From positions 3,457,501 to 3,521,500 of the forward strand of contig NZ_CP046535.1 in assembly GCF_009739515.1 (NCBI RefSeq): 64,000 nucleotides of DNA. The letters run 5' to 3'. Positions within the stretch are counted from its first letter, which is position 1, and each line of letters opens with the position of its first letter. The DNA comes from Sphingomonas profundi (GTDB taxonomy: Bacteria; Pseudomonadota; Alphaproteobacteria; Sphingomonadales; Sphingomonadaceae). Of the stretch, positions 7,779 through 43,181 are shown piece after piece. The notes beneath the pieces were generated by a model. It saw only the letters and a list, made by a program, of their open reading frames with translations, had not been told where the DNA came from and made no database searches. A program made the translations under genes and the position numbers.

Positions 7779-8018
7779 ATGGCGACTCATGGCAGAGGTG
7801 CGACGCAGAACGGCGCCAGCCGCCGCTTCAACCTGCCCGCGCGAGGAGGATGGCGACTGGCAGGACGAGCGCGACGCCATCGATGGAGCGGCGCCGCGCC
7901 TGCGCACCACCGTCACCATCGAGCAGCCGCGCACGATCATCACCCGCAACCAGTCGCCCGACATCGGTTTCGATCGCTCGATCAACCCGTATCGCGGCTG
8001 CGAGCAGCCCCGCAACGG
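7779..8018 (+). pseudogene. Truncated, frameshifted 5' end of the PA0069-family radical SAM gene
   Basis: This piece matches the first roughly 75 codons of the intact gene at 8407. The first frame reads MATHGRGATQNGASRRFNLP, parallel to MSKIAGRGATANATSRRFNLP. After a frameshift near 7838 it continues as EEDGDWQDERDAIDGAAPRLRTTV and then TRNQSPDIGFDRSINPYRGCE. The match stops at 8006, just before the cysteines of the CX3CX2C cluster motif, so no enzyme can be made. Base composition is like the host (high GC). It appears to be the original start of the gene, displaced by the segment that follows. Confidence 0.85.
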
Positions 8019-42146: not shown

Positions 42147-42178
42147 GAAAAAACCGCCGGAGCGCGAAGCTCCGGCGG
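42147..42178 (-). terminator. Strong intrinsic terminator of the small RNA unit
   Basis: On the minus strand a 10-bp stem CCGCCGGAGC/GCTCCGGCGG (42169-42178 with 42154-42163) closes a UUCGC loop and is followed by TTTTTTC (42147-42153). This is an ideal rho-independent terminator for transcripts running leftward. On the plus strand only CCTTTTA follows, so it is directional. Confidence 0.85.
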
Positions 42179-42245
42179 CCTTTTACATGGTCAGCGGCCG
42201 GAAGTGCCGGCCCGGGAGACCCATGCTACCACAAGGGCTAAGCCC

Positions 42246-42302
42246 TCAGGCGCGCATCCCCCGAACGGACTGAACCGACCTCATTACTGAACCATGAGAC
42301 AT
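42246..42302 (-). CDS. 18-residue leader-type peptide with an extended Shine-Dalgarno
   Basis: ATG at 42302 opens a short frame MSHGSVMRSVQSVRGMRA ending in TGA at 42246. Upstream, GAAAGGAGGTGATCC is complementary to essentially the whole single-stranded 3' tail of 16S rRNA (GGAUCACCUCCUUUC), with 7 bases from AGGAGG to ATG, the best-looking ribosome site in the window. The peptide is basic (four Arg) and not hydrophobic. It may be a regulatory leader peptide, or its translation itself may matter rather than the product. Confidence 0.5.
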   Translation of the reverse strand: MSHGSVMRSVQSVRGMRA

Positions 42303-42400
42303 CGGATCACCTCCTTTCGCTAAGTTGTCGACACGACGGAATGTGCGTGATCGCGCTGCGCTGCGCAAGAGTCCGCGATCATTTTTTCGCCCGCGCCTGC

Positions 42401-42934
42401 TCAGCCGCGGCAATCCTCGATCACCCGCGCGAATTCGGGCCATGACGGGATCACCAGGCGGGCCGTGCCGCTCACCGCGACGACGAAGCGGCCGCGGCTG
42501 AACGCCATCCTATCGAAGAAAGGGTCGCGCGCCGGCACCGCGATGCCCAGCGCCGCGCCGCCATCGGGTGCGACCGCGAAGGCGCGGTTCCCGGCGGAGG
42601 TGGTGATCGCCATCGTCGCGGCGGCCACGGGCGTGGCGACGGAGCGGGCGAGCGTCACCGTGCGCGTCGCCGTCGCGCAGCGCACCGTGAAGTCCGCCGT
42701 GGCGCCCGCCCGGCCGAAGCGTGCGGCCGATCCGCCTGCCTCCGCGGCGTAGCGCCAGTCGCCGGGGGTCAGCGGAATATCGCGCCAGTCGGTGGTCGCC
42801 GGCGGCGGCGGCGCCACCACCGGCACCGGCACGCGCGGCGGCGGGGCCTGCACCACCTTCGGCGCCACGCAGGCCGAAGCGAGCAGGCCTGCCGCAAGCG
42901 CGAAGCGACGGCGGGCGGAGCGGGCGTCTGTCAT
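42401..42934 (-). CDS. Putative lipoprotein, unknown function
   Basis: The 177-residue protein has a lipoprotein signal (RRRFALAAGLLASACVAPK, lipid Cys in LLASAC) and a proline-rich stretch (PPPRVPVPVVAPPPP), then one compact domain (WRDIPLTPGDWRYAAEAGG ... FTVRCATATRTVTLARSV ... GIAVPARDPFFDRMAFSRGR). It is probably a periplasmic domain on a flexible tether. I do not recognise the family with certainty. The start at 42934 gives the shortest sensible signal; the frame is open further upstream. Confidence 0.75.
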   Translation of the reverse strand: MTDARSARRRFALAAGLLASACVAPKVVQAPPPRVPVPVVAPPPPATTDWRDIPLTPGDWRYAAEAGGSAARFGRAGATADFTVRCATATRTVTLARSVATPVAAATMAITTSAGNRAFAVAPDGGAALGIAVPARDPFFDRMAFSRGRFVVAVSGTARLVIPSWPEFARVIEDCRG

Positions 42935-43181
42935 GCTGCCGGGCATGGTCGATCCGACCGCGAGAGGAAAGGGCCATCCGTCGCGGCGCGCCGTGAGCGG
43001 GACGGATCGGCGGATGCGCATGCGCGCGCGACCAGCGTGGCGGCGCGGCGCCACATTGGCCGCCGCGACTTACGGCACCAGCGCGATACGGGCTGCCCGG
43101 CGCGTCGCAATCCACCAAGCGCAGGCGGAGAGACGTCCGGCGCGTCCGGCATCCCCGTCCCGCGACCGCCGCACTTTCCGC
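42935..43181. other. Intergenic gap between uvrB and the lipoprotein gene
   Basis: This 247-base gap lies after the uvrB stop and before the lipoprotein start, both on the minus strand. I see no terminator with a U-run, no promoter of note and no convincing short gene. Confidence 0.4.

Follow-up and report, generated by a model that had tools for sequence, protein, structure and literature searches.

The minus strand of the analysed stretch of Sphingomonas profundi DNA (64,000 nucleotides, hereafter the window) carries a small transcription unit at 42368-42148, composed of promoter-like hexamers, the ribosome site GAAAGGAGGTGATCC, an 18-codon ORF, conserved stems and a terminator. Judged from sequence comparison, it is a free-standing RNA gene that occurs across the Alphaproteobacteria, almost always as a single copy, and a distant relative of the Caulobacter sRNA CC2171 (Rfam RF01867). 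The CC2171 family is recast here as a class-wide mini-mRNA, of which the window RNA is a homologous variant below the Rfam threshold. An earlier note on this DNA had described on this strand a 15-base complement of the 16S rRNA tail, ideally spaced before an 18-codon ORF, and a terminator, and the sequence confirms these elements. The features are as follows.

42363..42368, minus strand: -35-like hexamer TTGCGC, assigned by position; CTTG-type -35 elements lie at equal distance in other clades
42340..42345, minus strand: -10-like hexamer CACATT after a 17-nt spacer, matching the position of boxes in Hyphomicrobiales homologues
42304..42318, minus strand: Shine-Dalgarno site GAAAGGAGGTGATCC, complement of the 16S rRNA 3′ tail, near-invariant class-wide
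42302-42300, minus strand: ATG, separated from GAAAGGAGGTGATCC by a spacer G
42246..42302, minus strand: 18-codon ORF and stop, MSHGSVMRSVQSVRGMRA, kept in 127 of 127 curated homologues
42286..42296, minus strand: P1a 5′ strand CAUGGUUCAGU, codons 3-6 and the start of the next, partner 42195-42186, equivalent to the RF01867 outer stem
42275..42280, minus strand: P1b 5′ strand GGUCGG, partner 42201-42196
42257..42264, minus strand: P2 5′ strand UCGGGGGA, covarying inner stem
42212..42219, minus strand: P2 3′ strand UCUCCCGG
42218..42225, minus strand: stem arm CAUGGGUC of the earlier note, alternative partner of GACCAUG, formable in 16 of 110 relatives
42196..42201, minus strand: P1b 3′ strand CCGGCC
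42186..42195, minus strand: P1a 3′ strand GCUGACCAUG, nearly invariant in Sphingomonadaceae
42148..42182, minus strand: intrinsic terminator GCCGCCGGAGC-UUCGC-GCUCCGGCGGU with U run; the stem covaries in relatives
42401..43054, minus strand: upstream neighbour, lipoprotein-like, conserved, without a Pfam family, outside the RNA

The terminator stem-loop occupies approximately 42182-42154 and the T run 42153-42148. The other strand also forms a hairpin there.

In an Rfam search at an E-value threshold, the window RNA aligned to RF01867 over model positions 1-159 of 159 (51.8 bits, E 3.6e-10). At gathering thresholds no Rfam family matched in the window, the gathering score of RF01867 being 75. 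The window RNA is therefore not a formal CC2171 member, though homology is clear, and on this sequence evidence we regard it as near certain that it is a divergent homologue, which contradicts the earlier description of an undescribed RNA. The two RNAs align end to end and share the 5′ block CAAC-n-GAAAGGAGGUGAUCC-start codon-UCUCAU. The outer 7-bp stem of the family, which links the beginning of the transcript body with the terminator base, is present here as P1, with the terminator directly after it. They differ in the start codon (ATG in the window, GTG in CC2171), in the stem sequence (CAUGGUUCAG against CAUUGUC) and in the interior. Matches to SorX, sul1 and miRNA were rejected as terminator-like chance matches. 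The SorX match (RF02784) covers only the 3′ stem and terminator region and scores 18.0 bits, far below the gathering score of 46.6; we judged it chance or terminator similarity.

CC2171 reportedly goes back to Landt 2008. In the open-access literature searched, which did not include the original Caulobacter report, we found no description of an ORF or of 16S complementarity in the CC2171/RF01867 family; the only relevant mentions of the family were in Rfam 15 and in an RNA-seq list from Mesorhizobium huakuii, which includes a member named MH_s33 (PMC5596092).

Homologues were found by blastn in 181 of 201 Sphingomonadaceae genomes and in 89 of 96 genera. RF01867 itself matched in 61 of 289 genomes of the class, plus the named Caulobacter control. 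A core pattern occurred in 89 of 385 Alphaproteobacteria genomes, once in each except for one genome with two copies; the reversed pattern, run as a control on the 385, gave zero matches. There was no core-pattern match in approximately 210 phylum-mates outside the class, and the 49 positives in a sample of 299 from the phylum were all Alphaproteobacteria. Orders and families named in the scans are Sphingomonadales, Hyphomicrobiales, Rhodobacterales, Caulobacterales, Rhodospirillales and Acetobacteraceae. Among the matches listed, a few are labelled merely Proteobacteria and only L202, a metagenome-assembled genome, is named outside the class. The RNA is present in full at 7833 of its contig (labelled Gemmatimonadetes MAG SZUA-440), through either mis-binning or transfer. 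One Sphingomonadaceae genome (G093) has two copies (L050 and L095), one of the CC2171 type (68.9 bits) and one of the window type. No full copy of the RNA was found in plasmid and phage collections.

Within the ribosome site, the 14-mer AAAGGAGGTGATCC is the sole match in the window even at two or fewer mismatches (0.13 expected). The 4.54 Mb genome has one exact copy, which is this site, a count apparently made without rRNA genes, as the 16S-tail pattern matched in 0 of 10 of the genomes searched. We take AAGGAGGTGATCC to be the complement of the 16S tail, according to the established tail sequence, not the organism's own rRNA. The sequence at 42304-42317 is identical to the core shared by common 16S reverse primers (AAGGAGGTGATCC), and mispriming by them at this site is therefore possible. 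Substitutions in the 13-nt core keep the pairing with the 16S tail through G-U pairs in 12 of 15 cases. GGAGG is unpaired only 2-32% of the time in predicted ensembles, and free exposure of the site is therefore not certain. That the locus encodes a distinct RNA with a complete, indeed maximal, ribosome site is supported by conservation across the class.

Counting from the first G of GGAGGTG, the start codon begins exactly 12 nt further on in each of the 127 curated homologues. It is ATG, GTG or TTG in this aligned set, with ORFs of 18-21 codons in Sphingomonadaceae (exactly 18 in 65 of 81) and 18-35 codons elsewhere. Of 259 distinct homologues, 249 have frame 0 open over 18 codons or more; the other two frames reach this in 147 and 166, and shuffles in about 56-61%. 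The homologues counted span many families and are not phylogenetically independent. By three groups the frame 0 counts are 122/123, 38/38 and 89/98. The shortest frames among the 259 have 14 codons and are mostly from Bradyrhizobium (a shorter value, in L208, is a contig end), and the longest are three of 56-59 codons that belong to an Azospirillum-type variant. The open frame and the fixed start spacing argue for translation of the short ORF in vivo. The minimal ORF pointed out earlier is thus a conserved one, with an open frame in 127/127 curated homologues.

The 186-nt RNA has a predicted folding energy of −92.3 kcal/mol (z = −4.8 against dinucleotide shuffles). The RNAalifold consensus of 40 Sphingomonadaceae sequences contains P1, P2 and the terminator, and GACCATG pairs with ORF codons 3-6. 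P1 consists of these codons and GGUCGG paired with CCGGCC-GCUGACCAUG; its 3′ strand ends just before the terminator. In most homologues P1 begins only 3-6 nt past the start codon. P2 shows changes on both sides in six of its eight pairs (63 such cells; 24.7 in shuffles). The combined covariation score of P1 and P2 is 0.243, compared with 0.128 in shuffles, none of 500 being as high, and at most 0.067 in slid controls. All both-sided changes lie in P2. P1 never varies on both sides in Sphingomonadaceae, and its covariation therefore rests on comparison between clades. When P1 strands were paired with their own or other-clade partners, own partners gave −23.0 against −17.3 and −21.5 against −16.5 kcal/mol in two of four groups, and −19.6 against −13.8 and −18.6 against −15.2 kcal/mol in the remaining two. 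The swap did not clearly favour own partners in the Rhodobacteraceae or the Bradyrhizobium group. P1 pairing thus appears to survive sequence change between most clades.

The earlier proposal of conserved stems and a terminator holds; the branched stem CATGGGTC/GACCATG that it drew is a minority alternative and not the conserved fold. Among 110 relatives, 16 can form this stem, more than in shuffles (mean 1.15, maximum 5), and it competes with P1 for one GACCATG strand. No antiterminator overlapping the terminator stem was found: P1 ends before the terminator, which forms in every modelled state. With the start region blocked in the model, P1a is lost and P1b, P2 and the terminator stay intact.

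The sequences themselves show the ribosome site, a frame that is kept open and restricted in length, the stems P1 and P2, the terminator and the clade-specific neighbours. Because a complement of the 16S tail leads into an ORF that is folded into the main stem, the ribosome itself is probably the regulator. One P1 strand is the first half of an ORF with a fixed start, so ribosome loading and P1 should be mutually exclusive and occupancy would set the state. A 30S subunit at the start would cover approximately 15 nt downstream and could not coexist with the base of P1, and elongating ribosomes would keep P1 open. The maximal Shine-Dalgarno site would let the 30S compete with the P1 stem. Two forms are then expected: a loaded form with P1 open and its 3′ strand free, and an unloaded, compact form with P1 closed. 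We infer that a switch between them would alter RNA stability or base pairing with other RNAs, and that the RNA may thereby report initiation capacity in trans. No conserved target in trans, and no output, came to light. A free-standing mini-mRNA/sRNA of approximately 180 nt, homologous to CC2171 and with its state set by the ribosome, is a reading that we favour tentatively. Regulation by ribosome occupancy, suggested earlier from a single sequence, is the best reading of the frame, the start spacing and the overlap with P1.

Dual-function sRNAs such as rnTrpL/peTrpL, Spot 42 and SgrS are also small structured transcripts with a short ORF, and ribosome occupancy has been described for rnTrpL in S. 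meliloti (PMC10117765). The window RNA differs from them in that it is not an attenuator product and not leaderless, its peptide is not conserved and its ORF forms the main stem.

It is unlikely, if the most serious of the other explanations, that this is an ordinary base-pairing sRNA in which regulation resides in the 3′ structured region and translation of the short ORF does no more than protect or mature the transcript. Rfam classes CC2171 as an sRNA, MH_s33 was recovered by RNA-seq (PMC5596092), and the 3′ segment GCACUUCCGGCCGCUGACCAUG is highly conserved in Sphingomonadaceae. Across the class, however, conservation peaks at the ribosome site, the start codon and the Ser codon, and the 3′ part is rewritten between clades.

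Internal mimics of the 16S tail, able to pair with the RNA's own ribosome site, occur in several non-sphingomonad clades (L260, L160, L036, L237 and L213). Examples are GCGGATCACCTCC in L260, CUGGAUCxUCGCCUCC in the CC2171 clade, GGGAUCGCC in Bradyrhizobium and CACCUCC in several Rhodobacteraceae. By RNAduplex, homologues outside Sphingomonadaceae tend to have an internal anti-Shine-Dalgarno (group mean z −0.5 to −1.8); in Sphingomonadaceae it is absent (mean z −0.2), with none at the window locus, and so it does not explain this locus. For the class, it is conceivable, if improbable, that the RNA senses free 30S subunits, with the real 16S tail and the internal mimic of many non-sphingomonad clades in competition. 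Where ribosomes won, the mimic would be set free and might then cover the Shine-Dalgarno sites of other mRNAs.

The RNA could instead be a decoy that titrates 30S subunits, its 5′ tail capturing the 16S tail and P1 blocking mRNA accommodation. The complementarity extends along the entire 16S tail, most changes in it preserve pairing by wobble, and the short distance from start codon to P1 would suit such a block. An open frame would be of no use to a decoy, but all 127 curated homologues have one, of restricted length, and the gene is single copy; we consider a decoy distinctly improbable.

The chance that the gene serves to make a functional small peptide is slim. The frame is kept, and in the Azospirillum-type variant (L170, L173, L268 and L318 1525-1701) the same ribosome site heads an ORF of 56-59 codons with a signal-peptide-like start, annotated as protein WP_168220487.1 in Azospirillum thermophilum. 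Beyond Met-Ser, however, the peptide drifts freely outside the stem-forming codons, even within one family. Going by the sequences, the conserved HGS and RS residues of Sphingomonadaceae are explained by P1 pairing, and recurring motifs such as HGS and TWIxAS look like RNA pairing elements and not protein motifs. To the question raised earlier of peptide or structure, the answer is that structure and frame openness are conserved and the peptide is not, beyond Met-Ser and the codons that form the stem.

The chance is slimmer still that the RNA is a sponge for anti-Shine-Dalgarno sRNAs such as the alpha-r8/SisA/MmgR family. The alpha-r8 10-mer would form only about six pairs with the window RNA. 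The conserved block runs through GATCC, matching the 16S tail, and for a sponge the ORF would be superfluous. A precedent is Caulobacter CrfA, which sponges SisA-D, carriers of the anti-Shine-Dalgarno 10-mer (PMC12559287). CrfA and SisA (alpha-r8, MmgR) resemble the window RNA in being alphaproteobacterial sRNAs that centre on Shine-Dalgarno or anti-Shine-Dalgarno pairing. They differ in acting by Hfq-aided RNA pairing, and the part of the source that was available reports no complement of the length of the 16S tail for them (PMC12559287). None of their Rfam families matched the window.

A strict promoter consensus scan found nothing at the locus, and the promoter thus rests on position and on clearer boxes at equal distance in other clades. 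Examples are CTTGT...CCATACT and CTTAAC...CCTATATT; in Hyphomicrobiales homologues the boxes CCATACT, CCTATAT and CCACATT lie at the -10-like position. The motif TGANTCA, which contains the CcrM methylation site GANTC, occurs at -75 to -12 before the site in 35 of 114 Sphingomonadaceae homologues (1.2 in shuffles, maximum 5). By sequence it points to possible cell-cycle control of the promoter. It is absent from the corresponding position in the window.

The lipoprotein-like upstream gene, on the same strand, is linked to the RNA in approximately 71 of 81 Sphingomonadaceae loci. Downstream genes differ in identity and strand, both within the family and between clades. The earlier note had suggested an attenuator of the TonB receptor gene, which lies on the same strand approximately 360 nt downstream in the window. 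It has no counterpart in other loci. As the context on both sides is clade-specific, the RNA gene is an independent unit, with the TonB receptor gene as an incidental neighbour. A leader or attenuator of this gene was rejected by synteny and by the strong terminator and promoter-like hexamers that belong to the RNA itself, and we give it almost no credence. In approximately 16 of 19 Rhodobacteraceae loci, the RNA has a YhhQ-like transporter gene on one side and, on the other, a gene on its own strand for an ArfB-like ribosome-rescue release factor (GGQ motif); both assignments were made by reading the sequences (L209 177-600 and L160 224-647, relative to the ribosome site), without a family search.

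An Rfam sRNA known mainly from relatives of Caulobacter is hence a class-wide gene. About 90% of the Sphingomonadaceae genomes tested have it, and one short pattern alone finds it in about one quarter of the sampled Alphaproteobacteria. In this gene, the strongest possible ribosome site precedes an ORF that is conserved in openness and length, not in product. If occupancy is the signal, the RNA would be a natural sensor of initiation capacity, directly testable with existing Caulobacter and Sphingomonas tools.
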